The position numbers and the translations under genes were made by a program. This document shows, piece after piece, positions 2,093 to 33,597 of a DNA stretch of 33,714 bases. Within the stretch, counting starts at the first letter, position 1. The number at the start of each line of letters is the position of its first letter. The DNA lies in NCBI GenBank assembly GCA_943330235.2, contig CALQGY020000031.1, forward strand, positions 1 through 33,714. The letters are read 5' to 3'. This stretch comes from Candidatus Kuenenia stuttgartensis. GTDB lineage: Bacteria > Gemmatimonadota > Gemmatimonadetes > Gemmatimonadales > Gemmatimonadaceae. The notes beneath the pieces were generated by a model, which saw only the letters and a program-made list of their open reading frames with translations, had not been told where the DNA came from and ran no database searches.

Positions 2093-3363
2093 GCGCCCGC
2101 TTCAACGCGCCCGTGTCGGCCATCCGTATCATGTCGCATCGCGCCGCGCATCGCGCCACGTACCGCCACACGCACCGCATCATCGCTGGTCTGGTTGCGA
2201 ACGCGCTGGTGGGCGTCATTGCGTCACACGCTGCCGGCGCGCAGTCGCTGCTCCCCTCCACGGGGTGGGGCTTAACGCCGACCCTCAACGTGTGGGCGTT
2301 CCCCACGAAGCTGCCGCAAGGCGTGGGCGATGTGCTCGCCATTGCCGAGGTGGCGGTCCCGTTTCGCGTGCGCGCCAATGTGGGACGCTGGCGCGCCGAT
2401 CTCTCCGGCGCCGCCGCATTCGGTGGCGTGGCCATTGCCGCCGAAGAAGGGGGGCATCTCGCGCAACTCGCGGGTCCCACCGACGTGAAATTGCGCGTCA
2501 CGGGTCCGCTCTTTGGCGACGCGAACATGATCACGCTGGGCGTCAACATCCCAACGGGTAAGGTGGGGCTCACCTCCGAGCAAACCAGCACGCTGCAACT
2601 CCTTGCCGCGCCGGCGCTGCAGATGCCGGTGGCCACCTTCGGCATGGGGGCCGGCGCCACGGTGGGTGTCATTCACGCCTTCCAGGGCGAAGGCTGGGCG
2701 CTGGCGCTCGGCGCCTCGGGGGAGAAACGCGCCGAGTACTCGCCGGTCGCGCTGGTATTGAGCGCGGGCCCGTCGTCCACGCAGCTGACGCCAGGGCTCG
2801 CGGCGCACGTCACGATGGGCTTCGACAAGACCGTGGGGGAAGGACGACTGAGTCTGTTGGTGCTTGGCGACGTATTCACGAAAGATCGCCTGCGCTTCAC
2901 CGACGTGCCGACGGACACCAGCAGTAACTACACCCTTGGACCGCAGGCGACGCTCTCCGCGCAGTATGACATGGGCACGAGCGGCTGGCGCGAACGCACC
3001 ATCAGTGCCGCCGCGCGGAAGCGCTCCGCGTACCGCAACACCACCGGCGCGACCGTGGCCGGTTCCTCGGGGACGTTTCTCGAAGGCGCTATCAATGCGG
3101 TGCGCGGCGGGCCGCAGGGCGCGGGTTTGGTCATCGGCACCGATGCACGCTGGCACTCGGGGATGCCGTTTACCGACGCGCTCGTGGGGGCGGCAGTCAG
3201 CGCGATTGGGGCAACCATCGGCGTGGAAGGCGCCGGCAGTCACACGGCCACGCGATTCACCGTGCACGCGATGTACGGCAGCTTCGATACGGGAAAAACC
3301 ACATTGAACGGCATCAACCTGACGCTCGGATTCTCCATCGCCGCTCGCCGGGAGGCGCAATGA
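2089..3363 (+). CDS. exported probable outer-membrane beta-barrel protein
   Basis: Length 424 residues from GTG 2089, which overlaps the preceding stop (GTGA); an alternative start is ATG 2131. An Arg/His-rich n-region is followed by a hydrophobic core (IIAGLVANALVGVIAS) and a probable cleavage site AGA-Q. The mature part has many short alternating strands rich in Gly, Ala, Thr and aromatic residues, no enzymatic motif and no Cys, as in outer-membrane barrels. The C-terminal strands end in 'NGINLTLGFSIAARREAQ' rather than a clean terminal Phe. I do not recognise a specific family. It sits between a CsgG-like lipoprotein and a propeller lipoprotein and overlaps both by 4 bp, which suggests a shared outer-membrane assembly. 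Just after the GTG the protein contains four tetrapeptides ending in His-Arg or Tyr-Arg. Confidence 0.65.
   Translation: MSARFNAPVSAIRIMSHRAAHRATYRHTHRIIAGLVANALVGVIASHAAGAQSLLPSTGWGLTPTLNVWAFPTKLPQGVGDVLAIAEVAVPFRVRANVGRWRADLSGAAAFGGVAIAAEEGGHLAQLAGPTDVKLRVTGPLFGDANMITLGVNIPTGKVGLTSEQTSTLQLLAAPALQMPVATFGMGAGATVGVIHAFQGEGWALALGASGEKRAEYSPVALVLSAGPSSTQLTPGLAAHVTMGFDKTVGEGRLSLLVLGDVFTKDRLRFTDVPTDTSSNYTLGPQATLSAQYDMGTSGWRERTISAAARKRSAYRNTTGATVAGSSGTFLEGAINAVRGGPQGAGLVIGTDARWHSGMPFTDALVGAAVSAIGATIGVEGAGSHTATRFTVHAMYGSFDTGKTTLNGINLTLGFSIAARREAQ
2131..2178 (+). repeat. degenerate 12-bp repeat coding four x-x-(H/Y)-R tetrapeptides
   Basis: The codons from ATG 2131 give MSHR, AAHR, ATYR, HTHR, directly before the signal-peptide hydrophobic core. 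The DNA copies have diverged but the four-residue phase and the terminal Arg are kept. See the window-wide finding on Arg tetrapeptides. Confidence 0.7.
3350..3355 (+). promoter_or_regulatory. ribosome binding site deciding the start of the propeller lipoprotein
   Basis: GGGAGG lies 4 nt before ATG 3360, inside the end of the preceding gene. It shows that translation starts at the first unit of the Arg-containing tandem repeat and not at one of the later ATG codons. Confidence 0.75.
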
Positions 3364-3431
3364 GCACGCGTATGAGCACGCAGACGAGCACGCGTGTGCA
3401 TACGCGTATGCACACGCGTATGAACACGCGG
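3360..3431 (+). repeat. 12-bp tandem repeat x6 coding (M/T/V)-(S/H/N)-T-R
   Basis: Six consecutive 12-base units encode MSTR, MSTQ, TSTR, VHTR, MHTR, MNTR at the extreme N-terminus, ahead of the signal peptide core. Four of the six units begin with ATG. Confidence 0.9.
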
Positions 3432-5879
3432 AAGCCGCTGCGTGTTCGCATGGCCCACCGCGCGACGATGATGGCGCTGGCCGCCGTCACGGCGGCGTGC
3501 GCGCAGAAAGATCTGCTGCAATCGCCCGCGGTGTCGCCGCGGCACGTGACGTTGCAGCTGACGACGTCGCCGGCGGCGCAACAGGCCGGTCCCGCGTTTG
3601 TGTTCGTGGCCGCGGCGTACGAAACCAGCGACGGCTACGAGACGCTCGCGTACAAGTTCGCGCCGCTCGTGCAGGGGAGCCAGCAGTTCGAGTTGCCGGT
3701 GGATCTGGGCCCGTGCATCGCGTACAGCCGCACGCAGGGGCGAGAGAATTGCCCGCTGTATGTCGCGGCCGCGCTGGTGCCCGACACCATGGCGATCCGG
3801 GATTCCACGCGCAGCCTCATCGGCGAATCATACGACTCCGCCGTGCCCGTCGGCCCGTTTGAGGTCACCGCCGGTCGCGCGCCCACCATCCCGCCGCTGG
3901 ATCTGTCGGTCTCGCACTTTGGCGTGGTGCAGTGGGCCGGCGACGAGGCGCTTCGCACCGGCGGCAGTGACGCGCCGAAGGTGACACTGGCGGGTGTGCT
4001 CGGAGAACTGGCGCCGATTGGCGGTGTGGCCAACGGCGCGGGCGCTCCGACGCTGTTCGTGCCCACGTTGGGTCTGCGACTCACCAACAACGACGCACCC
4101 GAGCAGTACCAGTCGTTTGTGCCGCAGCTGGCCATCTACGACAACAGCACATGGCGCATCGTGTCCGGGCCCAACCTGCCCAAGGTGGGGGGCAGCAACG
4201 ATTACACGAGCGTCACGGCGTTCTCCCGTACGGAAGCCTACCTCACGTCGCCGAACGGGTTGCTCAAATTCGACGGCACCACCATCGCGCAGGTCAGCAC
4301 CGTGTCGGAGCCGCTGTTTGCGGTTGCGAGCGCCGTGGTGGGCACCGCGAAGTACGTCATCGCCGGCGGCAACAACGGCGCGGTGTGGATCGGCAATACG
4401 CAAAGCTGGCAGCGGTACACGGTGCCGGTGGCGGCGCAGATCAATGGCGTCTGCATCACCGGGCCGAATGAAGCCTTCGTGAGCACCACCGGTGGCGGTG
4501 GTACGGTGTTCCGCTTCGATGGTACCGCGTGGACCGCAGTCCCCACGCAGGCCACGGGGCCAAAGCTCGACCTGCAGTGTCCGGCGCCGGGCCAGGCGTT
4601 CATTCTCTCGTCGGGGAGCGCGGCGTATCAGTGGAACGGGACGTCGTGGAACGCGATTTCCACCACCGCGATCGCGGGCACCGCACAGATGCGGTGGGGC
4701 GTGGTGTCGCCGACGGAGATCTACGCGTACCGTGACAGCGCGTTGGTTGCGCGCCTGTTCTATCGCTACAACGGGACGGCGTGGAGCAGCATCGGTCGCA
4801 CTCGGCTGACGACGTTTGGTGGGGCGCGTCCGTGGGCGCTGCCCACCGGCGGGGCCGCGTACGTGGTGGGGGGCAATGCACGCATCGAACGGATGACGCC
4901 CAGCGGGGTGAGCGTTGTCAGCTACCAGCCGTCGTTGCGCGATGTGTATGTGAATGCGGCGAACAGCGCGTTCGTGGTGGGCGCGTCGTCGTTTCTGTCG
5001 CGGTGGACCGGCGCGCAGTGGGTGGTGGATGCGCCGCCCGAGGGCACACCAAGCACGCGCATGCTGCATGGCGTGTGGAGCAGCGGACCGTCCAACGCGT
5101 GGGCCGTGGGGCAACTGAGCACGGTGTACAGCTGGAACGGCGCATCGTGGACGATGGTGAGCGACAGCCTGCGGCCGGCGGCCGTGCGCGATGACTACAA
5201 CGCGGTGTGGGGCAGTGGCAGCGATGTGTGGGCGGTGGGCGAGAGCAGCATTCTCCACTGCACCGCACCGGTGGCGTGCACCAACGAAAGTTCCGGCGGC
5301 ACGGGCGCGTTGCTCAGCGTCTGGGGTAGTGCGGCCAACAACGTCTTCGCGGTGGGCGATGGCGGTCGCATTCTGCGCTACAACGGGACCGCGTGGTCGT
5401 CGATGACCAGCCCCACCAATCGCGCCCTCGCGCGCGTGTCCGGTAGCGGCCCCAATGACGTCTGGGCCGTGGGCGACAGCGTGCTGTTGCACTACAACGG
5501 GACCGCGTGGGCGAACGTGCCCATGGTCGGATTCCTGAGCAACATGCGCAGCCATGTCCAATCGTCGCTCGAGCGCGCCCAGTTCAGCGGCCTCGGAAAT
5601 TTCTACCACGTGGCGCTGTGGGCCCGCGGTCCGCGCGAGGTCTATCTTAGCAACGAATTCGGCACGATCGCGCGCTATGATGGGAGCGGATGGATAGATA
5701 TCAGTGAGGGCCGATACCGACATCGCATGATGGCGATCCACGGCGCCGCCGGCCCCGCCGGCTGTACGCTCGGGGTGACTGAAGTGAACTATGTGCTCAC
5801 CGGCCCCACGTTATGGCGTGGCGTCGGGCCGTCGGGGTGCTTCAGCGCGCCCATGCAAGGACCGGCAGCGTGGCGATAG
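3360..5879 (+). CDS. large beta-propeller-type surface lipoprotein with W-x-x-V-G repeats
   Basis: An 839-residue protein. The ATG overlaps the upstream stop (ATGA). A 24-residue Arg-rich tandem repeat is followed by a hydrophobic core (MMALAAVTAAC) whose last Cys fits a lipobox, so it is probably a lipoprotein. Residues ~40-190 form a separate N-terminal domain. From ~190 to the end there are about nine repeats of a blade-like unit with a Y/F-x-G-T-x-W strand (for example YRYNGTAW, LHYNGTAW) often preceded by 'DVWAVG' or 'NVFAVG'. Such repeats form WD-like or Kelch-like propellers and are common in exported proteins of soil bacteria; their ligands are mostly unknown. No catalytic motif is seen. 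It is the last gene of the kinase-CsgG-barrel cluster and is followed by a strong hairpin, so it probably closes the operon. Confidence 0.75.
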   Translation: MSTRMSTQTSTRVHTRMHTRMNTRKPLRVRMAHRATMMALAAVTAACAQKDLLQSPAVSPRHVTLQLTTSPAAQQAGPAFVFVAAAYETSDGYETLAYKFAPLVQGSQQFELPVDLGPCIAYSRTQGRENCPLYVAAALVPDTMAIRDSTRSLIGESYDSAVPVGPFEVTAGRAPTIPPLDLSVSHFGVVQWAGDEALRTGGSDAPKVTLAGVLGELAPIGGVANGAGAPTLFVPTLGLRLTNNDAPEQYQSFVPQLAIYDNSTWRIVSGPNLPKVGGSNDYTSVTAFSRTEAYLTSPNGLLKFDGTTIAQVSTVSEPLFAVASAVVGTAKYVIAGGNNGAVWIGNTQSWQRYTVPVAAQINGVCITGPNEAFVSTTGGGGTVFRFDGTAWTAVPTQATGPKLDLQCPAPGQAFILSSGSAAYQWNGTSWNAISTTAIAGTAQMRWGVVSPTEIYAYRDSALVARLFYRYNGTAWSSIGRTRLTTFGGARPWALPTGGAAYVVGGNARIERMTPSGVSVVSYQPSLRDVYVNAANSAFVVGASSFLSRWTGAQWVVDAPPEGTPSTRMLHGVWSSGPSNAWAVGQLSTVYSWNGASWTMVSDSLRPAAVRDDYNAVWGSGSDVWAVGESSILHCTAPVACTNESSGGTGALLSVWGSAANNVFAVGDGGRILRYNGTAWSSMTSPTNRALARVSGSGPNDVWAVGDSVLLHYNGTAWANVPMVGFLSNMRSHVQSSLERAQFSGLGNFYHVALWARGPREVYLSNEFGTIARYDGSGWIDISEGRYRHRMMAIHGAAGPAGCTLGVTEVNYVLTGPTLWRGVGPSGCFSAPMQGPAAWR

Positions 5880-5882
5880 CTC

Positions 5883-5900
5883 GAACGCGATAACGCGTTC
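5883..5900. other. small hairpin just after the propeller gene
   Basis: A 7-bp inverted repeat (gaacgcg / cgcgttc) encloses the loop ataa, 3 bases after the stop. It may add to the larger terminator at 5919-5958 or protect the 3' end of the message. Confidence 0.4.
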
Positions 5901-5918
5901 TTGCGGGGCGTATACAAC

Positions 5919-5958
5919 CAGAACGGGCTCCGCGTCACTGCACGCGGAGCCCGTTCTG
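5919..5958. terminator. probable bidirectional terminator between convergent genes
   Basis: A perfect 16-bp stem (5919-5934 with 5943-5958), extendable by a T-A pair to 17 bp with a 6-nt loop, lies between the convergent propeller and S9 peptidase genes. There is no clear T-run on the plus side; on the minus side the flank is mildly T-rich (TGGTTGTATA). Stem length and location support termination for both genes. Confidence 0.75.
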
Positions 5959-5995
5959 ATTGCGCCTCATGCCACGAGGACGGTACGGCATGGCG

Positions 5996-8900: not shown

Positions 8901-9136
8901 AGGTCATTCACCGAGAGCTGCCGACCGACCGAGGCGGCCGGCGTCCACTTGGAGACCGGCTTGTCATCGTGCGCGCCGAACGGCAGCGACGTGAGCGTGT
9001 TGGCGACCGGCGTGGCGCCGGTGCCGGTGCCGGTGCCGGCGCCGGTCGCGGGCTGCGCGGGAAGGCGGAGGGCGCCCAGACTGCAGGCGAGGACGGTGGC
9101 CAGTGGCAGCCGTCGGGTGAAGCGAAGAGCAATCAT
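5996..9136 (-). CDS. secreted prolyl oligopeptidase family (S9) peptidase
   Basis: A 1046-residue serine peptidase of the S9 clan SC type, with an N-terminal signal peptide (core LPLATVLACSLGALRL) ending before an Ala/Gly/Thr-rich mature start. Residues ~80-770 hold the propeller region and the last ~270 the alpha/beta-hydrolase. The catalytic triad is intact: Ser861 in GHSWGGY, Asp950 in HNDRDGAV and His982 in ENHGLARP, in the order and spacing of DPP4/acylaminoacyl-peptidase-like members. The enzyme should cleave short peptides in the periplasm or outside the cell, probably for peptide nutrition. The propeller is enlarged by several Gly/Ala/Arg-rich insertions (near 8570-8650, 8710-8750 and 7510-7560), which explains a length above the usual 650-750 for the family. 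It is convergent with the propeller lipoprotein and divergent from the flavoenzyme. Exact substrate preference cannot be read. Confidence 0.93.
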   Translation of the reverse strand: MIALRFTRRLPLATVLACSLGALRLPAQPATGAGTGTGTGATPVANTLTSLPFGAHDDKPVSKWTPAASVGRQLSVNDLLGWKGIRTPALSNDGKWFAYVLAPNEGDAEVIVRSTAAGAKEMRFPIGDASAGGGGGRGGAGGVSISGNGHWVAFLQYASSVTAGRGGRGGRGGAPAAAPAGAGAAAGAAQPKLAVVNLTDGTKREFDNVRAFTFAGDKSDWLAVHHAAPRAAGGNGGNGGGAPAGATLELVNLAGGTPQPVSDVSEYAFDDSGDWVALSIATADQSGNSVQIRQLSTGVARSLDVKKASYRRLTWGDSSDALAVMRVVTDTAGEDDDAAVLLFTHAAAMNAKAIEITPKTAGMPSGLVVSSDRAIEWGNKEGVLYFGVREPRAPRPRTVGGFTPPSTTGTAPGAGSSGQVAAAPQTDAEVPSLILWHWKDPRPQAQQQVQEAQDKAFSYLAAYQVASSKVVRLADEKVRDVSVGPKDTWAVGTDVSPYQRMQGINGSAYRDLYAINVATGARKMLQAKVPGGGGGGGRAGGAGLSFSPDNGKYAYYDLGEWKSYDFATGATKVLTTGVPTQFWDTDDDHNQVKPAIGGALVGWSTDGAQLFVRDNWDLWRLSANGGPALNVTGNGKSAQIRYQSRVLSDPRDRGAIDPAKPLYMETYGEWTKKEGLVQIDAMKGGAKTIAFEDAKVDYRKARDADTWVFSRQTVVKYPDFYAADDGLKNERRLTDANPQQKEIAWTPGARLINYTCENGGGKHQAVLYLPAGYEAGKTYPMLTYIYEKLSQEFNVYTEPNATRYSNPSVYTSRGYAFLKPDIVYHVNDPGRSATWCVVPAVKAALATGMIDAQRVGLQGHSWGGYQTTFITTQTNIFKTAVAGAPLTDMVSMFGSMYWNSGSTDASIFISSQGRFTGGPNDVPAAYMRNSPQNFAQNLSIPFMILHNDRDGAVDFNQGITYYNHLRQLGKDVVLLEYVGENHGLARPANQKDYNLRMTEWFDTFLRDQPAPTWLKEGVPRLQMEEHLKERRPLVDPKTAPAAKIVP

Positions 9137-9286
9137 GACGTGATCCGGTGGGAGTCGTTCAAGAGACGCTGCCTACGCTAGCACCGGATCCGAGAGGGCG
9201 AAAGTTGTGACGTCTTGACGGATGCCGTGCCGACGCGGCAATTGGGGGACGCTGCTGATGGCTGCTCTCTCCTTCTGCCCCCTCCC
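9137..9286. promoter_or_regulatory. divergent intergenic region with a 9-bp inverted repeat
   Basis: About 150 bp separate the S9 peptidase and flavoenzyme starts and should hold both promoters. A perfect inverted repeat (gatccggtg at 9142-9150, caccggatc at 9182-9190, 31-bp spacer) could be a regulator site. No clear -35/-10 pair was recognised. If the flavoenzyme starts at TTG 9215, part of this stretch is coding. Confidence 0.4.
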
Positions 9287-10549: not shown

Positions 10550-10576
10550 TGCTCTGATAGTGAGCTTATGGCGACG

Positions 10577-16828: not shown

Positions 16829-18268
16829 TCACTTCACCCGCGCAACCCCGATCACACTCCCCTTGTCCAGCTGCCGCACCCACGCGGTCAGCGCGCCGGT
16901 CTCACTGGACGCCAGGGCGGGATACCACTGCTTCGGCCCCGCGTCGGGTGCAGGCACCGGCGTAAAGGTGGGCCGTCCCGCGGCATCCACGCGCACGCGC
17001 GTCATGCCCATGCGGCGCGTGCCGTCCACGACTTCATCCCACGCGACCAGTGCGGAGCCGTCCGCCGTGATCACCACCTGCGGATGTGACGCGGCACCGC
17101 GCGTCGGGATGCGCGTGCGAGCGGAGAAGGGCGCGCCATCGCGCGACACCGCGTAGAACAGCGCCAGCGCCGCCATGTCCTTGCCGTCGGCGGGCGTGGG
17201 CCACACCACATGCGCACGGCGCTGCGTATCGATGGCCAGCGCCGGGCCGTTGTCGGGGCACCCGTCAATCTGCCAGTGGTCGTCGCTTACGCGTTGCGGC
17301 GCTGCGAAGGTGCGTCCGCCGTCGGATGATTTACTGAACGCGATATCGCGCTGACTGCCCGGATAGACATGGCGCCAGACCGCATAGACGGAATTTCCGT
17401 TCGCGGCGAGCGTGGTCTTGCAGCAGTAGCAGACGCTGCGCGTGATGCGGACGGCGTTCGCGGTCGCGGTCGCGGTCGCGGTCGCGTTCGCGGTGGATGG
17501 CGCCGTCGTGTTGTCGAGCGATGAGAAGAACAACTGCGAGAGCGCGGCCCGTTCGGTGGGATCGCCCTTGGGCATGGTCATCGGCGCGGCCGTCGCGCTC
17601 ATGGTGTGCTTGTGCGCGCTGTCGGCCTTCACGAGGTCGCGATGATCAAGCCACAGCACCAGCACGCGGCCCTTGGCATCAACGGCCACCGACTGCCACC
17701 CGCGCGCGCCGTCGCCCTCGCTGCCGGGTACGGCGCGACTGGTGGAGAAGGACGTGCCGCCGTCGGTGGAGCGCGCCGAGAGCAGCTTCCAATTGGCGCC
17801 GGCCTTGGCGGTCCATACCACGACGATGTCGGGCGTGCTGCCAGGGCGCGGCACCAGCACGACGCGCGGCGGCTCTTCGCCACTGACGCGCGCTTCACCG
17901 GGCACGCGGTTGACTTGCACCGGCGCACCGAACGACGTGCCGCCGTCGCGACTGGTGGCGACGAAGATGTCCATGGACGACACCGTCGCCGCGGAGAAGG
18001 CCACGGCCACGAACGCGCCCTGCGCGGCAATGGAGGGATTCGCGCTGGCGCGACCGTCTACGGTGAGCGTGGCGATGGCGCTCTGCGCGGGCAGAGGAGC
18101 GTTGAACGCGACGTTCGTGAAGGCGAACGCGCACGCCGCGATCAGGGCACGCGAGCGCGTGAGCGTCGGCGTCAGCGAGCGCGTCAGCGAGCGCGTCGGC
18201 AAACGCCTCAGCGAGCACGCGGCACGGAGGTTCTGCATGGTCATGGCGGTGAGCGAGAGAGGAATCAC
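16829..18268 (-). CDS. exported Asp-box (BNR) beta-propeller protein with four-cysteine site
   Basis: Length 479 residues from GTG 18268 (1 bp after the thioredoxin stop); ATG 18244 is an alternative. After an Arg tetrapeptide repeat and a signal core (ALIAACAFAFTNVAF) cut near PAQ-S, the mature part has at least three Asp-boxes of the S-x-D-G-G-x-x-F type (SRDGGTSF, STDGGTSF, SSDGGRTF), so it folds as a sialidase-like propeller. Annotation as sialidase would be unsafe: I do not see the full set of catalytic Arg/Tyr/Glu residues. The mature protein holds only four Cys: C280, C282 and C283 in 'SVCYCCKT' and C337 in 'DGCPDNGP', which look like a metal or disulfide site. The tract just before C280 is a low-complexity Ala/Thr/Asn repeat. 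Position directly after a TlpA-like thioredoxin supports a Cys-dependent function. Confidence 0.8.
   Translation of the reverse strand: MIPLSLTAMTMQNLRAACSLRRLPTRSLTRSLTPTLTRSRALIAACAFAFTNVAFNAPLPAQSAIATLTVDGRASANPSIAAQGAFVAVAFSAATVSSMDIFVATSRDGGTSFGAPVQVNRVPGEARVSGEEPPRVVLVPRPGSTPDIVVVWTAKAGANWKLLSARSTDGGTSFSTSRAVPGSEGDGARGWQSVAVDAKGRVLVLWLDHRDLVKADSAHKHTMSATAAPMTMPKGDPTERAALSQLFFSSLDNTTAPSTANATATATATANAVRITRSVCYCCKTTLAANGNSVYAVWRHVYPGSQRDIAFSKSSDGGRTFAAPQRVSDDHWQIDGCPDNGPALAIDTQRRAHVVWPTPADGKDMAALALFYAVSRDGAPFSARTRIPTRGAASHPQVVITADGSALVAWDEVVDGTRRMGMTRVRVDAAGRPTFTPVPAPDAGPKQWYPALASSETGALTAWVRQLDKGSVIGVARVK
17455..17494. repeat. hexanucleotide tandem repeat coding Ala-Thr/Asn
   Basis: Near-exact copies of a cggtcg-type 6-mer give alternating Ala-Thr and Ala-Asn residues in the propeller protein, about ten residues before the CYCC motif. 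The unit preserves the frame. Confidence 0.8.
18149..18196 (-). repeat. 12-bp repeat x4 coding T-(R/P)-(S/T)-(L/R) before a signal peptide
   Basis: Codons give TRSL, TRSL, TPTL, TRSR immediately before the hydrophobic core of the propeller protein's signal peptide. Same four-residue phase as in the other exported proteins of the window. Confidence 0.75.
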
Positions 18269-22898: not shown

Positions 22899-22919
22899 CG
22901 CATCCGCGATGCCAGGCGG

Positions 22920-25394: not shown

Positions 25395-25402
25395 CGATGC
25401 GG

Positions 25403-28207
25403 CTATGGGCGCTGCCGTTCGAACGACATGCCGACGGCCGGCAGCGTGGCCCCGCTGATGGTACCGATCAGCCAGCTGTTCCCATTCGTTGCGGTCGCGA
25501 ACGCCCCGACAAACGTGAACGTGAGGCCGTTGCTGGTGGTCATGGTGAACGAGACGCTGGTGCCGTTGACGGTGCCGCTGACGGCGGTGATGGGAATCAC
25601 GCCGACGCCGCCGAGGGCGATCTGTCCGGCGGTGTTGAGCGCGGAGAGTTGGCAATCGCCGGCGGTGGTAGTGCAGTTGTTCTGCGGCGCGGGGGCGGCG
25701 GTGGGCGTGGCCAGCGTGAGCGTGTTGCCGGACTGCAGCAGGCGGATGTGCCAGTGGATATCACTGCACGCCGTGTCGCCGGACCAGAAGCCGGTCATGG
25801 ACACGGCGGCTCCGGTGCCGGGTCCGGGCGTGAAGCAGGACTCGAACGGCGAGAAGAGCGCGCGGCCGCTGGCATCGGTGATGCCCGTGGTGAGACTGAC
25901 GGCGTAGCCGTTGGCGTTCTCGTACGGGGCCGCGGGGGTGAACGTCGCCGTCTTGTTGGCCGCGTTGTAGGTAATCGCGCCACTCACCAGCGCGGCCGTG
26001 TTGCGATTGCGCACGACGAAGGTGCTGCTGGTGAGCGTGGCCGCGTTGAGCGCCTCCGAGAACGTCACCACCACCGGTGCGGAGGCGCCGACGTTGCTGG
26101 ACCGGTCGGCGGGTGAGATGGCCGTTACGATCAACGGTGGCGCGTCGGTCGTGAACGCCGACTGCACGGCGGTGACGGGGTTGCCGGCAAGATCGCGGAT
26201 CCCGGCCGTGAGGTTGATGGTGAAATTCGTTCGGTAGGCCAGCGGTGCCGACGGGACGAAGCGGGCCGTGTTGGTACCCGGCGTGTCCTGAATGCTGCCA
26301 GCCACCGGCGCGCCGGAGCTCGTGACCTTGAGGGCGAACGTGGTGGTGGTGAGTGACGCCGGTTCCAGCGGTTCACTGAAGACGACCACGATCGGTGTCG
26401 ACGCATCCGCCACCACGGCGTTGTTGGCCGGCGTAATACCGAGCACGCGCGGCGGCGTGTTGTCGATGACTGGGCCGGTCACGAACACGATGGTCAGGTT
26501 GGCGGCGAGTGCGTTTCCCGCACTGTCTTTCGCGGCGGTGGTGATCGTGGCCGTGTACGACGTGAGCCCGTCGAGGTGATCGTTGGGCCGGTAGGAGATG
26601 GTGTTGGTGGCGGCGTTGTAGGCCACGGCCCCTGCGACCGCGGCGCCCGTGCCGGTGGCGCGGAGCGTCAGCGCGGCGGACGTCATCGTGCTCGCGTTCA
26701 TCGGCTCGCTGAACGTGGCACTGACGGGGAAGTTCGGGTCGACGTTGGTGCTGCCCGTGGCCGGCTGTGTGCTGATGACGGTGGGCGGCGTGATGTCGGG
26801 CGGCACGGTGGTGAAGCGCGACACGAAGGCGGCGGTCAGCGCATTGCCGGCCACGTCGCGCGCGTCCGTGGTGACGCGTACCGTGTAGGCCGTGCCGAGG
26901 GCCAGCGGCGCGCCGGGCGTGAGTGTGGCGCGGTTGGTGGCGGCGTCCAATGCCACGGTGGCGGTCACGGGTGCGCCATCGCTGCTACGCGTGAGCGTGA
27001 GCGAGCTCGTGGAAATGGAACCGGCAAGCATCGCCTCGCTGAACAGCACCTGCACCGTGGTGGTGAGCGGCACGTTGGTGGCGCCGTCGGCGGGGGTCAC
27101 GGCGGTCACGGCCGGTGGGTTGTTGTCCACCGGTGGCACCGTGACAAACGTCGACGTGATGGCCGCGAGCGGGTTACCGGCGACGTCGCGAATGGTGCCG
27201 GCCAGGCTCACGGTGTACGACGTGCTGGTGGTCAGCGGCGCGACGGGCGTGAGCGTCGCGGTGCGCGTGGCGGAATTGTACGTGCGGTTGGCTGTGACGG
27301 GCGTTCCACCCGTGGTCGTACGGAGGGCGATCGCACTCTCGGTGACGGACGTCGCATCCAGTGCTTCGCTGAACGTCACGCTGACCGCAGTGCTGGTCGC
27401 GACGTCGCGGGCGCCGTTGGGCGGCGCGATGCTGGTGACCGTCGGCGGCGTGTCGTCGATGGGCGCGGCGGTGGTGAAGCCGGCGCTGTAGGCCGTCAGC
27501 AGTTGATTGCCACTGACGTCTTTGACGCCGGTGGTCACGCGGAGCGTGTAGCCGGTGCTGGGGGTCAGTGCGGCGGCGGGGGTGACGCTGACCGTCGTGG
27601 CGCCCGGCGTGTAGGCCACGGTGCTCGTCACCGGCGCATCGGTGGCGGTGAGGCGCAGCGAGACGCTCGTGGTGGTCACAGACGCCGCCGACAGCGGCTC
27701 GCTGAACGCGATCGTCACCGGCAATCCGATCGCCACAGCGGTGGCGCCGGCGGCTGGGGCGGAGCTCAGCACGCGCGGACCCGTGAGGTCGAGCAGCGTG
27801 AACGTCGACTGCGGCGTAACGGGAGACGGCGACGACACCGCGCCCGCGCTGCCGTTGGCGGCCACGGTGTAGCGGTAGGTCTGCAGCTCCACGAGCCCAT
27901 AATCGGTGAAGCTGTTGGTCGTGGCCTCGCCGACCTTCACCCCATCGCGCAGCACGGTGTAGCTGCGTACCTGCTCATTGGCGGGGTTGGCGGTCCAATC
28001 CACGCGCACCGAGGTGAGCGACACCAGCGTCACCGTCACGCCGGTGGGGGCGCTCAGCGTGGCGGGCCCACTGACGTCGCTCGCACAGCCGATGGCGAGT
28101 AGGGCGGCGCACGACCCGACGAACGCGTTCAAGCGCGTAGACGTCTGCGATCGCGATCGCGTTCGCGTGCGCGAACGCGTCCATGCGCGCGAAAGAAGCG
28201 AGATCAC
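25403..28207 (-). CDS. lipoprotein with FN3 and six Ig-like (Big_5) repeats and a novel C-terminal domain
   Basis: Length 934 residues from GTG 28207, overlapping the stop of the upstream gene (GTGA). An Arg-Ser/Thr dipeptide repeat precedes the signal core; the lipobox LLAIGC gives Cys41. An FN3-like domain (~51-132) is followed by six Ig-like Big_5 repeats, each opening with a 'T-P-P-x-V-x-x-x-x-P-x-x-G-A-x-x-V' strand and containing 'V-x-F-S-E-x-(L/M)' and 'Y-T-V-x-(L/V)-T-x-x-x-(K/R)-D-x-(A/S)-G-N', as in surface adhesin-like and S-layer-like proteins. The last ~132 residues (about 803-934, from SMTGFWSGD) form a separate domain with four Cys that resembles the small lipoprotein encoded just upstream. 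Expected to sit on the outer membrane surface; binding partner unknown. High Thr/Ala/Val content and internal repeats explain the large antisense open frames. Confidence 0.88.
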   Translation of the reverse strand: MISLLSRAWTRSRTRTRSRSQTSTRLNAFVGSCAALLAIGCASDVSGPATLSAPTGVTVTLVSLTSVRVDWTANPANEQVRSYTVLRDGVKVGEATTNSFTDYGLVELQTYRYTVAANGSAGAVSSPSPVTPQSTFTLLDLTGPRVLSSAPAAGATAVAIGLPVTIAFSEPLSAASVTTTSVSLRLTATDAPVTSTVAYTPGATTVSVTPAAALTPSTGYTLRVTTGVKDVSGNQLLTAYSAGFTTAAPIDDTPPTVTSIAPPNGARDVATSTAVSVTFSEALDATSVTESAIALRTTTGGTPVTANRTYNSATRTATLTPVAPLTTSTSYTVSLAGTIRDVAGNPLAAITSTFVTVPPVDNNPPAVTAVTPADGATNVPLTTTVQVLFSEAMLAGSISTSSLTLTRSSDGAPVTATVALDAATNRATLTPGAPLALGTAYTVRVTTDARDVAGNALTAAFVSRFTTVPPDITPPTVISTQPATGSTNVDPNFPVSATFSEPMNASTMTSAALTLRATGTGAAVAGAVAYNAATNTISYRPNDHLDGLTSYTATITTAAKDSAGNALAANLTIVFVTGPVIDNTPPRVLGITPANNAVVADASTPIVVVFSEPLEPASLTTTTFALKVTSSGAPVAGSIQDTPGTNTARFVPSAPLAYRTNFTINLTAGIRDLAGNPVTAVQSAFTTDAPPLIVTAISPADRSSNVGASAPVVVTFSEALNAATLTSSTFVVRNRNTAALVSGAITYNAANKTATFTPAAPYENANGYAVSLTTGITDASGRALFSPFESCFTPGPGTGAAVSMTGFWSGDTACSDIHWHIRLLQSGNTLTLATPTAAPAPQNNCTTTAGDCQLSALNTAGQIALGGVGVIPITAVSGTVNGTSVSFTMTTSNGLTFTFVGAFATATNGNSWLIGTISGATLPAVGMSFERQRP
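28133..28180 (-). repeat. (S/T)-R dipeptide repeat before a lipoprotein signal core
   Basis: Sixteen codons encode T-R-S-R-T-R-T-R-S-R-S-Q-T-S-T-R in the n-region of the Ig-like-repeat lipoprotein. The underlying unit is 6 bp. It gives seven Arg ahead of the hydrophobic core. Confidence 0.8.
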
Positions 28208-28680
28208 GTGGTCGTACTTTTCTCGAAGGTGATGGTGGTTTCGGGAATGGTCGCGCCGCTGATCTTGCCGGTCATCAGTTTGTCGTCCGCCATCCGCCCC
28301 GTGAACGTGAACGTCCGGTTGTTGGAGAGCGTGAAGGTGAACGTGATGGTGGGATTGGTGAACGAGCCGCTCAGCGATTTGACGACGACCGGCAGCTCAC
28401 TGCCCACGTACGCGACGCCCGCGGGGCTGAACGGAAAGAGCGCGCAGCGGTCGGGGAGGCAGTTGGGGAGCAGCGACAGCGTGGTCCCGGTCTGCACGAT
28501 TTCGACGTGCAGATGCACGGAGCCCGCCACTTCCACGCCCACCCAATAGGCGTTGGCAGACTGCGCAGGGACGGCGGGTTCGAGGGTGGCCGGGCCGCCG
28601 CACGCGGAGAACGCGAAGACGGTCGCCGCGAGGGCCAGCGTCGATGTACACGTCGAACGCTTGGAACGCACACGCCACAT
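28204..28680 (-). CDS. small lipoprotein, stand-alone version of the neighbouring C-terminal domain
   Basis: A 158-residue protein, starting 3 bp after the upstream stop. The signal peptide (core LALAATVFAFSAC) ends in a lipobox with Cys27. Residues ~43-158 are predicted all-beta and align by eye with the C-terminal domain of the next gene's product: 'AYWVGVEVAGSVHLHVEIVQTGTTLSL' parallels 'GFWSGDTACSDIHWHIRLLQSGNTLTL' there, and both end with a strand pair, 'N-x-x-TFTF-x-G', then 'GTISGATLP' or 'GKISGATIP' and an F-E-(R/K) ending. Two Cys (in NCLPDRC) may form a disulfide. I do not recognise a named family. The pair probably arose by duplication, and both may act at the same surface site. 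Confidence 0.75.
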   Translation of the reverse strand: MWRVRSKRSTCTSTLALAATVFAFSACGGPATLEPAVPAQSANAYWVGVEVAGSVHLHVEIVQTGTTLSLLPNCLPDRCALFPFSPAGVAYVGSELPVVVKSLSGSFTNPTITFTFTLSNNRTFTFTGRMADDKLMTGKISGATIPETTITFEKSTTT

Positions 28681-28683
28681 AGA

Positions 28684-29784
28684 TCAGTGCCGGGAAGAGG
28701 AGGGGGCCGCGCGCCTGGGCGCGCTGGCGTTGGGAAGCGGTGCCGGACCACCCATGCCGGCGAGGCCCATCGCATTGGCCATGGAGACCCACTCGTCAAC
28801 GGACGTCACGCGGGTGGTGTCGTCGCGGTAGCGTGCCGACGCTTGCAGGATGGTCGCGCGTTTTTGGGCACGCGGCACATTGGGGTTGGCGAGAATGTCC
28901 GACACCACATCGTGCAGCGAATGGAGGTTGTCGAAAATGATCGCGGCCTCGGGGTACATACTCGAAAACAGCGGTGCGATGCCGGGCGACATGGGCATCA
29001 TGCTGGGCGGCGCGCTGTCCACCAGCACAAAAAACCGGCGCACCACAGCGTTCACATTCGCATCGCGGTCGGCCTTCGTCGCGCCGGCCAGCAGCGCGTC
29101 GTACAGCGTCATCTGCACCCAGTGATACGACCAGATCAGCCCGTTGAACGTGGGCGCCTGCTGCCGAAAGGCCAGCGAATAGGGCTGCCCTTCCATCAAG
29201 GTCATGTCCTTGGGCTTCGCACTGAACGCCACCGCTGGGCGCGACCGATAGTACCGCAGCAACGCCGCCACATGCGCATCCCGTTCGGCGGGGGCATCGG
29301 CGTCGTGCGTTAGCACGTCGTACAACTGCCGGTGCAGGATGTGCGCCCAGTTGAACATCTCGAGCGTTTCAGGGGCCAGCAGCGACCAGTCGGTGCCCAC
29401 AGCATGTTCATCCAGCGGCAACCGCGGTGGTTTGCGCAGCAGCGTGCGGCTGATGTACGCGTGTTCGCGCTGCTCAAGGTGCTGCGCGCCCGTGCTCGGG
29501 AACTGCCAGAGCTGCTGGTACAGAATGGCGTGCCCGTAGTCGAACGCGTTGAACAGGCGGCTGGCCGCCGGATACGCATCGTTGAAGGCGAAACTGTGGG
29601 CGCCGGGCAGGTAGGTCTGCTCGTAATACCGGCCGCTCTGTGCCGACGCGGCGGTGTACGGCATCAGGACCGTGAGCGCGGCAGTCAGCAGCTGCGACCT
29701 GCGCTGCGACCTGCGCGGTGACATGCGCGGTGACATGCGCGGTGACATGCGCGGTGACATGCGCGGTGACATGCGCGGTGACAT
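28684..29784 (-). CDS. exported His/aromatic-rich helical protein of unknown function
   Basis: A 366-residue protein. AGGAG (29793-29797) fixes the start at ATG 29784, the first of six MSPR units. After these and RSQR-RSQ comes a signal core (LLTAALTVLMPYTAASA) cut near residue 48. The mature part is mainly helical with recurring His in amphipathic helices next to aromatic and acidic residues: FDYGHAILYQQLW, EREHAYISR (written here with its context REHAY), MFNWAHILHRQLYD, WSYHWVQMTLYDALL and DNLHSLHDVVSD. This regular placement suggests a metal- or heme-binding helical bundle, but no known signature was recognised. The C-terminal ~25 residues are a Pro/Ala/Ser-rich tail. It follows a barrel protein gene by 11 bp and precedes a lipoprotein gene by 3 bp. 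Confidence 0.7.
   Translation of the reverse strand: MSPRMSPRMSPRMSPRMSPRMSPRRSQRRSQLLTAALTVLMPYTAASAQSGRYYEQTYLPGAHSFAFNDAYPAASRLFNAFDYGHAILYQQLWQFPSTGAQHLEQREHAYISRTLLRKPPRLPLDEHAVGTDWSLLAPETLEMFNWAHILHRQLYDVLTHDADAPAERDAHVAALLRYYRSRPAVAFSAKPKDMTLMEGQPYSLAFRQQAPTFNGLIWSYHWVQMTLYDALLAGATKADRDANVNAVVRRFFVLVDSAPPSMMPMSPGIAPLFSSMYPEAAIIFDNLHSLHDVVSDILANPNVPRAQKRATILQASARYRDDTTRVTSVDEWVSMANAMGLAGMGGPAPLPNASAPRRAAPSSSRH
29713..29784 (-). repeat. six 12-bp tandem copies coding MSPR, each with its own ATG
   Basis: Six exact in-frame copies of a 12-mer (atgtcaccgcgc on the coding strand) open the gene; two further 12-bp units coding RSQR and RSQ-L follow (down to about 29689). The exact identity of the six copies points to recent expansion. 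Confidence 0.95.
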
Positions 29785-29792
29785 GGCGTGCG

Positions 29793-29797
29793 CTCCT
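29793..29797 (-). promoter_or_regulatory. ribosome binding site overlapping the upstream stop codon
   Basis: AGGAG, 8 nt before ATG 29784, shares its first bases with the TAG stop of the barrel gene (TAGGAG). This fixes the start at the first repeat unit and suggests translational coupling of the two genes. Confidence 0.75.
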
Positions 29798-30758
29798 ACA
29801 GCTTGAGAGGGCGACTCACCGTCGTGCCGACGGTGAGGAACGAGGCGCGGCTTTCGCCCGTGAACAGCCGGCCGACGGCCGCATCGAGCACGATGGAGCG
29901 CGTCAGCTGGGCCCGCAGTCCGGCTTCCGCCGTCCAGTCCGCGGCGCGGCCGATGCTGCGGTACTTCTGCGCAAACACGTCGGCGACCAGCATGATCGCG
30001 TGCAGCGGAAACGTGTGGTCGATGGCTGCACCGGCGATCCAGCGATCGTGCGTGGCAATCAGTGGGGTCGCGAGCGCCACGGACCCATTCGCGGACGCGC
30101 TCGCGCCTGGCGCAGCGACGGTCAGTGGGGCCGGTGCGCAGAGGAGACGCAGCGGCAGGTCGCCGCCCGCGCCGATCACGTTGCAGGCACCGTGAATGGG
30201 CGGGATGATCTTTTCGAAGCCGACCGGCACGCGCACGGTATACGTGCCATAGCTGCCGTTCAGATGCAGACGACCGGCGCGGCTGCTGCGGGTGAGCAGC
30301 GCTTTCACGGCGTATGTGGACGGCAGCGCCGCGGGTCCGGTCGGCACGAAGTACTCGGCGGCCAACGCGATGGCCGGCACGTGCTGCGACTCCATGACCA
30401 GCTGATGCTCGGTGCCGATTCCCACGCCGCCCACACCGGAGCGCGGACGCGCGGCGCGCTCGTTGAAGAACACCGGCGAGCGGACGCTGATTTCCGTCCG
30501 CGGCAGCAGTCCGTACGACACGCGCGGCTCGAGCTGCAGGCGATACCGATTGAGCGACAGCTTGTCGAGCCGCCCGTTGCCGACGCTCACTTCGAGCGAT
30601 CGGCGCGCCGTGGGGGTGGCGTCACTGATGCGCAGCGGCCGACCGGAGTCGACGTTGCGATAGTCAACTTGCGCGTCGGCGGCGCGCGGGCCGAACCACG
30701 CCGCGGCGACGGCGGTCACGGCCAGTGCGCGCATGGCGGACCTGTGGAAAGCGCTCAT
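29796..30758 (-). CDS. exported outer-membrane beta-barrel-like protein, unknown function
   Basis: A 320-residue protein with a Sec signal peptide (MRALAVTAVAAAWFGPRAADA-Q; ATG 30758 or 30734). The mature part has strand-loop-strand character with 'LEVSVGNGRLDKLSLNRYRLQLEPRVSYGLLPRTEISVRSPVFF', reminiscent of transporter-type barrels that begin with a 'GL...TE' turn as in the phenol-degradation MetA-like family. It ends '...VGTTVSRPLKL'. A Cys pair in 'HGACNVIGAGGDLPLRLLCAP' could form a disulfide in a loop. It is the first gene of the five-gene cluster reading to the DNA polymerase, so the promoter of the cluster should lie in the divergent region upstream. Confidence 0.7.
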   Translation of the reverse strand: MSAFHRSAMRALAVTAVAAAWFGPRAADAQVDYRNVDSGRPLRISDATPTARRSLEVSVGNGRLDKLSLNRYRLQLEPRVSYGLLPRTEISVRSPVFFNERAARPRSGVGGVGIGTEHQLVMESQHVPAIALAAEYFVPTGPAALPSTYAVKALLTRSSRAGRLHLNGSYGTYTVRVPVGFEKIIPPIHGACNVIGAGGDLPLRLLCAPAPLTVAAPGASASANGSVALATPLIATHDRWIAGAAIDHTFPLHAIMLVADVFAQKYRSIGRAADWTAEAGLRAQLTRSIVLDAAVGRLFTGESRASFLTVGTTVSRPLKL

Positions 30759-30895
30759 GGTGGAAAGCTACTCCGACCGTCCCGTAAAGTCTCCCATCAA
30801 CGGACGTCGCGTGTCGCGGTGTCGTGCGCAGGCGCCGCCTGCACGCGTGGTGCGTCCGTTGACGGCCTCAGCGTGCGCGCCTAGCTTCTGGGGCT
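30759..30895. promoter_or_regulatory. divergent promoter region with nested inverted repeats
   Basis: A perfect 10-bp inverted repeat (tcaacggacg at 30797-30806, cgtccgttga at 30853-30862) encloses 46 bp that contains a second perfect hairpin (gcaggc/gcctgc with 3-nt loop, 30828-30842). The region must hold the promoters for the barrel-to-polymerase cluster and for the glycosyltransferase pair. The repeats may be operator or cruciform sites. Confidence 0.5.
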
Positions 30896-31741
30896 ATGCG
30901 AAACGGTGGGGAGGCTGATCGTCTGAACCGCGCTCCCGACGATCGGGTGCGCCCGTTTGGGGTATCGGCGTACGGCGAGGTGCGCATCGCGGCGGTCATT
31001 ACGGCCCGGAACGAAGCCGGTACTATCGCCGAGGTGGTGCGATGCACCGCCGCCCATGTGCATGAGGTGCTGGTCATGGACGGCCAGTCGCTCGATGAGA
31101 CCGCCGCGCGGGCCGAGGCCGCCGGGGCCCGCGTCATTCGCGACACCGGACGGGGAAAAGGCGCAGCCATCCGTCAGAGTCTCGCCGCCACGACGGCCGA
31201 CATCGTCGTCTTTCTCGATGCCGACGGCTCACACGATCCGGCCGACATCCCCGCGCTGGTCCGCCCGGTCCTGGAGCGGCGCGCCGAACTGTGCGTCGGC
31301 AGTCGCTTCTCGGGCGGCACGGATGAGCTCTCGGTCACGGTCAGTCAGCTCGTCCGCACCATCGGGAACGTGGCGATGAACATCGCCATCAACACGCGCT
31401 TTGGTGTCGCGCTGACGGATACGCTGAACGGATTCCGGGCGGTACGTCGCACGGTCGCGTTGGAAGTGCAGCTGCAGGAGAACCGTCACACCATCGAGCA
31501 GGAGATGGTGATGAAGGTGCTGTCGTACGGCTACCGGGTGGTCAACCGGCCCACGCACGAATATTCGCGACGGTTCGGCACCAGCCATATTGCCGTATGG
31601 CGCGAGTGGCCGTCGTTCGTGCGCTGCGTGGTGGTGAACATCTTCCGTCCCATGCGGGCGGGCGCCCTGCCGGCCGCCGAGCGCGGTCCGGACGATGACG
31701 CGCACTCGGCCGTGAAGACTTGGATGCAGGGCGACGCATGA
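30896..31741 (+). CDS. family 2 glycosyltransferase, polyprenyl-phosphate sugar synthase-like
   Basis: A 281-residue GT-A enzyme without transmembrane helices. It has the nucleotide-sugar fold start 'VRIAAVITARNEAGTIAEVV', the 'VLVMDGQSLDETA' strand, 'RGKGAAIRQSL', the metal-binding DxD in 'VVFLDADGSHDP', and the acceptor region 'GSRFSGGTDE' and 'TDTLNGFRAVRR', then 'EQEMVMKVLSYGYRVVNRPTHEYSRRFGTSHIAVWREW'. This order is that of dolichol-phosphate mannose synthase and related polyprenyl-phosphate glycosyltransferases, which make the lipid-linked sugar donor used by GT39 enzymes. The next gene is GT39-like and overlaps by 4 bp (ATGA), so the two probably make and use the same lipid-linked sugar. 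The sugar is not determinable. Confidence 0.9.
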   Translation: MRNGGEADRLNRAPDDRVRPFGVSAYGEVRIAAVITARNEAGTIAEVVRCTAAHVHEVLVMDGQSLDETAARAEAAGARVIRDTGRGKGAAIRQSLAATTADIVVFLDADGSHDPADIPALVRPVLERRAELCVGSRFSGGTDELSVTVSQLVRTIGNVAMNIAINTRFGVALTDTLNGFRAVRRTVALEVQLQENRHTIEQEMVMKVLSYGYRVVNRPTHEYSRRFGTSHIAVWREWPSFVRCVVVNIFRPMRAGALPAAERGPDDDAHSAVKTWMQGDA

Positions 31742-33597
31742 GACGCGATCGCGCCGCGCTGGTGGGTGGCGCCGTCGTGATTGCCCTCTGCGCCCTGTTC
31801 ATGCCGTCGGCCTGGTATGACGCGCTGCCGCGGCAGGCGGAGATGCCACCGCGGCCCATGAGCGGCGTGCTGCTGTTCCGCCTGCTGCTGGCGTTCGAGG
31901 CGGCGGTGCTGACCATCGCGGCGGTGGCCGGGTGGCGCTATGTGCGTGGTCCGTCGCTGGACGCGATGGTGCCGGGGCTCGGTGATCGCGAGGAGGCCGG
32001 CGATCTGTCGGCCCGACAGGCCACGTGGTGGGGGGCGCTGATCACCCTGCTGGCGATCGCGCTGCGCCTGTATCACGCCGACGCCGAGTTGTGGCTGGAT
32101 GAGATTACGCCGCTGCTCGACTACGGCGGGTTGTCGGTGCCCGCGGTCATCGGTACGTACCTGCGTTCCAACAACCATTTGCTGAACACGCTGCTCATCA
32201 AGGGCATGGTGGCCGCGTTCGGCGAGCAGGCGTGGTCGGTGCGCGTGCCGGCCATCGCGTTTGGCGTCGCCGCGGTACCGCTGGTGTACGGGTGCGCGCG
32301 CGTGGTGTTGTCGCGGCGCGCGTCGCTGTGCGCCGCGTTGTTGCTGGCGGTGTCGTACCATCACATCTTTTTTTCGCAGAATGCGCGCGGCTACACCGCG
32401 TATCTGTGCTGGGCGTTACTGGGCACGCGCGCGCTCATCGATGCGTTGCGCCATGATCGTCGGCGGTCGTGGGCGCTCTTCGTGGTGGCGACGGTGCTTG
32501 GCTTTGCGGCGCTGCTGCATGCGGCGTTCGTGTTCGCGGCGCAGGGGCTGGTGGCCTTGGGCGTGGTGTGGCAGGTGCGCGCACAGGGCGGCGACGCGGT
32601 GGCGCGGTGGCGTCGGGTCCTGGTGGTGTTCGCCATCGCGGGCTTGGTCAGTCTGCAGCTGTACGCCATCGCGTTGCCCGATGTGCTGGTGGTCATCTCC
32701 AGCGTCTACAAGCTGCAGAGCACGGGCTTCGTGTTCTTCTCGGGCGAGTTTGCGCGGGAGATGCTGCGCGGCCTGAGCGACGGCTTCGGTGGCGCGGCGC
32801 GCGTGGCCGCCGTGCCCGTGCTACTGGTGGCGGCGGCGGGCTTTCTGGCCCTGCTGCGGCGTTCGTGGGTGCTGGCGGCGATGCTCGTGTTGCCGGGCGT
32901 GCTCACCGGCACGTTTCTCGTGGTGCGTGGGCTCACCGTCTCGCCCCGGTTCTTTCTGCTCTGGTTGCCGCTGACGGCGATCACGGCCGTCGTGGCCCTC
33001 GACGCGGCCATCGAGGCGATGCGTGGACACTTCCGTGGACACTTCCGTGGACACTTCCGCGGACGACTCCGCGGACGACTCCGCGGACGACTCGGCGAAC
33101 GTCTGTGCGAGTCGCCGGCGCTCGCGCAACGCGTGCTGGTGGGGAGCGTGGCCGGCATGGCGCTCCTGTCGCTGGCTTCGCTGCAGCGCTACTACGCCAT
33201 TCCCAAGCAGCCGTACCGCGAGGCGATTGCGTACATCGAGCAGCATCGCGCGCCGGCCGATCCGGTGATCGTGCTGTATCTGGGCGAGTTCGGCGTGCGG
33301 TATCACGGTGCGCGGATGGGAGCGCCGCTCGAGTCGCGCTACCACTTCGTCCGGACGATGCCGGCGCTGGAGGCGGTGATGGCGTCGCGTGGCACCGGGC
33401 ACGTGTGGGTGCTGACGACGTTCGAACGCGCGCTCCGCATGGACCTCCCCGACATCGATGGGCGTCTGCGGCGCGACTGGGTGGAGCGGGCGCTGTTTCC
33501 CGGCACCATCGGTGACGGGGGCGTTCGGGTGTGGACGGAGGCGAACGGGAGCGCCGACACCCTGCCGGCCGCACGGCAGGCACCGCCGCGGCGCTGA
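31738..33597 (+). CDS. GT39-like polytopic membrane glycosyltransferase
   Basis: Length 619 residues from ATG 31738, overlapping the GT2 stop. About eleven to twelve transmembrane helices are visible. The first large periplasmic loop has 'RLYHADAELWLDEITPLLDYGG', with the Asp-Glu pair typical of protein mannosyltransferase/ArnT-type enzymes, and 'FFSQNARGYTAYL' matches the conserved Arg-Tyr region of the family. The enzyme should transfer a sugar from a polyprenyl phosphate to a periplasmic acceptor such as lipid, polysaccharide or protein; the upstream GT2 would make the donor. A loop at residues 429-452 consists of three RGHF and three RGRL repeats, followed by another transmembrane helix (VLVGSVAGMALLSLASL) and a C-terminal soluble domain of ~150 residues. 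Specific product unknown. Confidence 0.88.
   Translation: MRRDRAALVGGAVVIALCALFMPSAWYDALPRQAEMPPRPMSGVLLFRLLLAFEAAVLTIAAVAGWRYVRGPSLDAMVPGLGDREEAGDLSARQATWWGALITLLAIALRLYHADAELWLDEITPLLDYGGLSVPAVIGTYLRSNNHLLNTLLIKGMVAAFGEQAWSVRVPAIAFGVAAVPLVYGCARVVLSRRASLCAALLLAVSYHHIFFSQNARGYTAYLCWALLGTRALIDALRHDRRRSWALFVVATVLGFAALLHAAFVFAAQGLVALGVVWQVRAQGGDAVARWRRVLVVFAIAGLVSLQLYAIALPDVLVVISSVYKLQSTGFVFFSGEFAREMLRGLSDGFGGAARVAAVPVLLVAAAGFLALLRRSWVLAAMLVLPGVLTGTFLVVRGLTVSPRFFLLWLPLTAITAVVALDAAIEAMRGHFRGHFRGHFRGRLRGRLRGRLGERLCESPALAQRVLVGSVAGMALLSLASLQRYYAIPKQPYREAIAYIEQHRAPADPVIVLYLGEFGVRYHGARMGAPLESRYHFVRTMPALEAVMASRGTGHVWVLTTFERALRMDLPDIDGRLRRDWVERALFPGTIGDGGVRVWTEANGSADTLPAARQAPPRR
33022..33093 (+). repeat. 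12-bp tandem repeats: RGHF x3 then RGRL x3
   Basis: Three exact copies of cgtggacacttc are followed by three exact copies of cgcggacgactc, in frame. They lie in the loop between two transmembrane helices of the GT39-like enzyme and put nine Arg and three His beside the membrane. Confidence 0.95.

Follow-up and report, generated by a model that had tools for sequence, protein, structure and literature searches.

Arginine-rich tandem repeats beside membrane segments in a Gemmatimonadota contig most likely belong to a genome-wide population of 12-15-bp minisatellites

In Sec signal peptides a basic stretch, the n-region, lies next to the hydrophobic core, in keeping with the positive-inside rule. 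A review describes selection that acts against repeats causing frameshifts in coding DNA, and a preference of coding repeats for the N-terminus, especially in pathogenic bacteria (PMC3899988). In exported Plasmodium proteins, another paper reports, expansions of lysine-rich repeats create targeting signals, and targeting depends on repeat number (PMC5207086). Here we analyse six arginine-containing tandem repeats in contig CALQGY020000031.1 (33,714 nt, hereafter the window), which is one whole contig (C31) of the 4.02 Mb Gemmatimonadota assembly GCA_943330235.2 (223 contigs, 91.6% complete). The sequence-only reading of the window had proposed that the genome specifically builds charge beside membrane segments. 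Our results suggest that the repeats are most likely part of an unusually abundant minisatellite population, limited in unit size and spread across the genome, and not of a device shown to be membrane-specific. In the open-licence literature, as judged by titles and abstract openings, we recognised nothing on such repeats in Gemmatimonadota or on 12-bp repeats in signal-peptide n-regions.

Tandem arrays of 12-15-bp units are in excess in the part of the genome that was scanned. The scan covered 60 stretches of this genome together with the window, 1.205 Mb or 30% of the assembly, and all array counts for this genome refer to these; the whole assembly was covered for one motif search only (successive ATG-NNN-NNN-CGN units). 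Score thresholds of 13, 16, 20 and 25 were tried, and the headline count is that at score 20. At this threshold 139 tandem arrays were found, 51 of them with a period of 12 and 39 with a period of 15, compared to 38 after codon shuffling, which left intergenic DNA unaltered, and 0 in Markov-shuffled sequence. Perfect duplications of 11-16 bp occurred at 105 per Mb, compared to 17.5 (G029), 15 (G020), 5 (G028), 15 (G034) and 0 (G057) per Mb in five sampled relatives (133-400 kb each). Perfect duplications of 17-40 bp were not raised (2.5 per Mb versus 0-10 in the sampled relatives). Scanned by period, there were none at 16-23 bp, three at 24 bp and none at 25-30 bp; duplications of period 8 (36) and 9 (77) were also common, as in relatives.

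The arrays were unevenly placed, with 36 in the first 45 codons of genes (0.31 per kb), 41 between genes (0.33 per kb) and 62 elsewhere in genes (0.064 per kb). Within genes the reading frame was kept. Periods divisible by three (3n) were found in 62/62 arrays past codon 45, in 32/36 N-terminal arrays and in 25/41 intergenic arrays. Perfect duplications in coding and intergenic DNA numbered 56 and 15 at 12 bp, 3 and 9 at 13 bp, 2 and 6 at 14 bp, and 25 and 8 at 15 bp. Units of 11-16 bp survive in intergenic DNA, and within genes a frame filter leaves almost only 3n units (12 and 15 bp). In the 99 perfect duplications with two to three copies, the repeat ran a mean of 5.2 bases past two units, compared to an expected 0.9. 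An overhang of this kind agrees with slippage between short direct repeats, although longer arrays in partial decay would also inflate it. A motif common to the units was rejected, as 5-mers present in at least 12 of 115 units were at most 2.2-fold enriched. Three successive ATG-NNN-NNN-CGN units were found at eight distinct sites in the whole genome and at 16 sites in 29 genus relatives, across 13 of them. Many of these sites lie outside clear genes or are read in another frame. The reversed control pattern gave six matches in this genome, and the excess is therefore not specific to this motif.

Arrays were also present in other genomes. The same-family genome G034 had a comparable density (13.5 arrays per 100 kb versus 11.5 here), made up mostly of 7-bp units: in the 133 kb sampled (L132-L141), 14 of the 18 arrays had 7-bp units and 11 of these were intergenic, so that the preferred unit size is another one. 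In 361 kb from small loci of 36 relatives there were 4.4 arrays per 100 kb. A named-contig survey gave 54 duplications of 11-16 bp per Mb; because several contigs carry a Lys/Ala-repeat protein near the query gene, which raised this value, it is not a clean yardstick. Other array-rich members of the phylum may exist; a second such species is only hinted at, by G005 (5 arrays in 14 kb) and G011 (4 in 15 kb). Near the gene of a Lys/Ala-repeat protein, three related contigs (L302:1635-1931, L303:1562-1933 and L310:1626-1921) carry intergenic 14-bp arrays, two of them in inverted, facing orientation (CCTACGGGAGGGGA and its reverse complement).

The six repeats in the window are listed in Table 1. 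All lie where the sequence-only reading had placed them or within a few bases, and for each of the six, shuffling its own 40 codons 1000 times never reached its score. Tandem Repeats Finder (TRF) reported 12-bp arrays at 3360-3430 (5.9 copies, 77%), 18151-18214 (75%) and 29696-29785 (7.5 copies, 96%), three overlapping rows of 12/24 bp at 33022-33101 (88-94%) and a 6-bp array at 28147-28179 (score 38). The repeats of the genes at 2131 and 28207 are weak (score 17, compared to 74.5 for the MSPR repeat), with just 1.9 good copies by TRF at 2135-2157 in the former. Head-to-tail units of more than 10 bp, as in minisatellites, are thus seen in the four clear 12-bp or 12/24-bp arrays (3360, 18149, 29689 and 33022), the unit at 28133-28180 being 6 bp and the repeat at 2131 having fewer than two good copies. 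Each MSPR unit at 29689-29785 has its own ATG. Elsewhere, a 12-bp array at L249:8859-8928 (G000:C77, unit TCGCCACGCGTT) has a translation matching residues 7-40 of the MSPR protein and is perhaps a further pre-signal array. The window also holds in-frame 6-bp arrays that encode no Arg, at 17454-17494 (TATATA), 9014-9046 (GTGTG) and 671-704 (APAPAP-type).

Table 1. Positions and surroundings of the six tandem repeats in the window.
Repeat	Coordinates	Strand	Context
Degenerate 12-bp repeat (SHRAAHRATYRHTHR)	2131..2178	+	Precedes hydrophobic core; gene start 2089 or 2131, end 3363; no Pfam match
12-bp array, start codon within first unit (MSTRMSTQTSTRVHTRMHTRMNTR)	3360..3431	+	Precedes lipoprotein-type signal; gene 3360-5879
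12/24-bp array (SLRRLPTRSLTRSLTPTLTRSR)	18149..18219	-	Precedes signal core; gene 16829-18268 (BNR-like, below cut-off)
6-bp (S/T)R array	28133..28180	-	Precedes lipobox; immunoglobulin-like (Big_5, by Pfam) gene 25403-28207
Near-perfect 12-bp array, MSPR x6 + RSQR	29689..29785	-	Precedes signal core; gene 28684-29784
12/24-bp array, RGHF x3 RGRL x3	33022..33101	+	Loop between hydrophobic segments; PMT_2-match polytopic protein 31720-33597

Several features indicate that the six repeats are translated. AGGAG lies 8 nt upstream of the ATG at 29784 and GGAGG 4 nt upstream of the ATG at 3360, the genes at 2089 and 28207 begin in a GTGA overlap with the preceding stop, and the repeat at 33022 is in mid-protein. 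No clear ribosome-binding site was found for the gene at 18268, where plausible starts all precede the repeat. These signs point against true starts that lie after the repeats, and a start-calling artefact was judged unlikely for the six. Gene starts are longest open reading frame (ORF) starts, and genes were called with a home-made codon model; it missed a 911-aa ORF at 22920-25655 (-), which we take to resemble DNA polymerases of family B. To assign signal peptides we used a simple rule and not a trained predictor. Five of the repeats had been described as preceding a signal-peptide core and one a transmembrane helix. The rule classed four genes as signal-bearing (those starting at 3360 and spanning 16829-18268, 25403-28207 and 28684-29784), each with a net positive stretch before the core and a cleavage site or lipobox. 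For the gene at 2089 a core and an AGAQS end are visible by eye, yet the rule classed it as transmembrane, and the repeat at 33022 is in a loop and not in an n-region. The window arrays add about 12-30 residues to n-regions or, for the one at 33022, to a loop. The six genes are likely unrelated, as had been proposed: no Pfam family was common to any two of them, with two genes lacking a match and two matching only below the curated cut-off, which leaves non-homology short of proof.

No array is present in the closest orthologues found (52-71% identity across the aligned part), and the six repeats are therefore lineage-specific. In 27 of 29 homologues of the MSPR gene the N-terminus was visible, and by eye none had the array; the closest (L063, 71% identical) has MSLHTQSSRRLLARTLL in its place. 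Among the 29 genus relatives, the genes at 25403-28207, 2089 and 3360 have one orthologue each above 50% identity. The orthologue of gene 3360 (L190, in G002) begins MNTTLTCFRARAL, and those of gene 2089 (L230, in G002) and of the immunoglobulin-like gene (L220) have short ordinary n-regions without a repeat, as do eight orthologues of gene 16829-18268 (L160-L167). For gene 31720 one orthologue was found, at 62% identity, and that genome also has a second place with 50%. Aligned to L153, the array of its PMT_2-type protein amounts to 27 gap positions, and the L153 loop has a short WRSRPKR stretch; L156 and L154 likewise lack the array. Gene order is kept without arrays in two places, for the MSPR gene, a small gene and the immunoglobulin-like gene (window 25403-29784) in G029:C1:4279282-4283554 and for the overlapping pair 2089/3360 (window 2089-5879) in G002:C390:1600-5249. 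Gene duplication as the source of the repeats was rejected, given the array-free orthologues and the lack of a common Pfam family among the six genes. The earlier description of the arrays as in frame, of slippage type, translated and next to membrane segments in a basic context was borne out.

The charge of the encoded arrays differed by context. For this test three of the 12 signal-class proteins, being polytopic, were shifted to the other group. Across the nine arrays before cleavable signals, 29% of the 197 residues were Arg and none was Asp or Glu. Arg and Asp+Glu made up 12% and 8% of the 20 other N-terminal arrays, 5.5% and 10% of 59 interior arrays, and 19% and 5% of intergenic arrays translated in open frames; array-free n-regions had 21% and 4%. 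At least 20% Arg was found in 9/9 arrays before cleavable signals compared to 6/20 other N-terminal arrays (p=0.0007). Acid-free arrays numbered 9/9 and 9/20, and acid-containing arrays 0/9 and 11/20 (p=0.005), with two of these 11 sitting in polytopic proteins shifted out of the signal class. Re-tests left out the window because it had been picked for this very feature, and gave 6/6 versus 6/20 for Arg (p=0.004) and 0/6 versus 11/20 for acidic residues (p=0.024). Arrays that include the start codon follow the same trend. By eye, MSPR in the window and MRAR (G022), MRHR (G025) and MAVR (G017) in three other species of the genus stand ahead of signal-peptide-like sequence, and two soluble-looking proteins of this genome start with MSER and MSDR arrays (MSERMSERMSER, MSDRMSDRMRER). 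MSPR before a signal core beside MSER and MSDR at soluble-looking starts suggests that local charge rules pick which new sequence survives.

Tests for enrichment of arrays before signal cores, which had been put forward as a check on the proposal, gave mixed results. Compared to the first 28 codons of soluble genes, pre-core density was 2.6-fold (p=0.010), 2.5-fold (p=0.025) and 2.2-fold (p=0.059) at scores 13, 16 and 20, and 2.0-fold (p=0.074), 2.0-fold (p=0.12) and 1.8-fold (p=0.18) without the window. Per gene, a pre-core array was present in 12/296 signal-class genes, and an N-terminal array in 4/147 other membrane and 13/424 soluble genes; signal class versus the rest (17/571) gave p=0.43, or p=0.20-0.25 without the window. 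Array densities over scores 13-20 were 0.56-0.80 per kb pre-core, 0.20-0.45 in the first 45 codons of other membrane genes (pre-core versus these, p=0.19 at score 13 and p=0.09 at score 20), 0.21-0.25 in those of soluble genes, 0.13-0.38 in the 45 residues after cleavage, 0.18-0.34 for in-frame intergenic periods and 0.04-0.23 in the rest of genes. For any array in the first 45 codons, p ranged from 0.001 (score 13) to 0.40 (score 25). A 12- or 15-bp repeat occurred in the first 50 codons of 24/296 signal-class, 9/147 other membrane and 12/424 soluble genes; signal versus soluble gave p=0.0017, which we discount because sequence past the cleavage site, at the start of the mature protein, is part of this count. 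We rejected a strong enrichment at signal peptides, the effect being smaller in other designs and without the window; the weak enrichment can be explained by a greater tolerance of n-regions. Arrays of the same 12/15-bp kind also lie in intergenic DNA, in gene interiors and at the N-termini of soluble-looking proteins. Together with the per-gene test, this does not support the proposal that the genome specifically builds charge beside membrane segments.

The six repeats are probably local products of a mutational process that acts throughout the genome of this lineage with units of about 12-15 bp, filtered by the tolerance of each site. Slipped-strand mispairing between short direct repeats would give rise to the arrays and let them grow. 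They would last mainly in poorly constrained sequence, namely intergenic DNA, N-terminal tails, signal-peptide n-regions and cytoplasmic loops. Acidic residues next to a signal core are harmful to Sec export and to positive-inside topology. Units tolerated there would be basic or neutral only, acidic units persisting at soluble N-termini, and the surviving pre-core arrays would look Arg-rich because acidic units had been removed by purifying selection. If the window arrays affect export at all, we expect the effect to be a minor by-product. Several observations weigh against this account. The pre-core stretch is the densest class found, more so than simple tolerance requires, with the window itself contributing part; at scores 13 and 20 it exceeds in-frame intergenic arrays (p=0.003 and 0.001) and the first 45 residues of the mature protein (p=0.035 and 0.003). 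The nine pre-signal arrays are Arg-richer than array-free n-regions (median 28% versus 20%, p=0.016), and with the three polytopic proteins back in the signal class the acid contrast is 2/12 versus 9/17 (p=0.064). Array midpoints peak 50-75 nt past predicted starts (14 versus 2.3 expected, 6x), with bins from -150 to 0 at 0.8-2.1x expectation, and a pure tolerance model predicts no such peak. The upper unit-size limit of 15-16 bp is also unaccounted for.

The pre-core density and the Arg excess speak for adaptive tuning, in which arrays are selected since the number of Arg units adjusts Sec targeting or helix orientation with the frame intact. So do the high Arg fraction of every pre-signal array compared to other N-terminal arrays, with or without the window, and the MRAR, MRHR and MAVR arrays of the other species. 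We nevertheless consider such tuning unlikely, given the per-gene test, the density ratio that is non-significant without the window, the orthologues without arrays, and array-free n-regions that are already basic and nearly acid-free; an acid filter with multiplication of already basic sequence could account for the Arg excess. The peak in array midpoints, which are not raised from -25 to +25, leaves room for an N-terminal hotspot, where arrays preferentially form or stay within the first 10-50 codons regardless of where the protein is sent, owing to initiation- or transcription-linked slippage or low cost. The densities of 0.31 and 0.064 arrays per kb at N-termini and elsewhere in genes agree with this, as does the preference of coding repeats for N-termini, especially in pathogenic bacteria, that the review describes (PMC3899988). 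Intergenic density is equally high, however, the starts are longest-ORF guesses, and N-termini are also tolerant coding positions. A hotspot is less probable than the lineage-wide mutational process, which it overlaps, and both could hold together. That the arrays are misassembled or lie upstream of true starts is very improbable. The source assembly is fragmented and 4/36 N-terminal arrays have non-3n periods, but frame is kept in all arrays past codon 45, four window arrays are preceded by ribosome-binding sites or GTGA overlaps, and one array is in mid-protein. Also doubtful is a distinct mutational engine whose tandem duplications are confined to 12-15 bp, set for example by repair-patch or primer length, and which is exploited for heritable N-terminal variation, including signal-peptide charge. 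Collectively, what we see looks like a general mutation process and not a dedicated export-tuning device. The several-fold excess of 12-15-bp duplications with its sharp upper limit makes this genome well suited to finding the replication or repair step that determines how long a unit is. Should copy numbers turn out to vary, frame-neutral variation could be tested directly in signal-peptide n-regions.

The arrays can be set beside four known systems. Like the n-regions of Sec signal peptides, the pre-core arrays are basic, acid-free stretches directly ahead of a hydrophobic core; unlike them, they are lengthened through tandem duplication. Phase-variable contingency loci resemble the arrays in that slippage-prone repeats lie close to the 5' end of genes encoding exported proteins. 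Phase variation was rejected for the six repeats, whose units are all 6 or 12 bp (one also readable as 24): contingency loci have non-3n units and on/off switching, whereas these units are multiples of three, so that a change in copy number cannot switch a gene by frameshift. The lysine-rich repeats of Plasmodium are likewise basic tandem repeats at exported proteins, and that work concerns eukaryotic host-cell targeting with experiments (PMC5207086), whereas ours concerns bacterial Sec n-regions from sequence alone. The arrays also resemble bacterial coding minisatellites, or variable-number tandem repeats, with head-to-tail units of more than 10 bp in frame in genes, and with the N-terminal bias and selection against frameshift that the review describes (PMC3899988). 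Unlike these, the arrays reported here, observed in one genome of the species, have a narrow unit size (12-15 bp, none at 16-23 bp) and a several-fold excess over sampled relatives.

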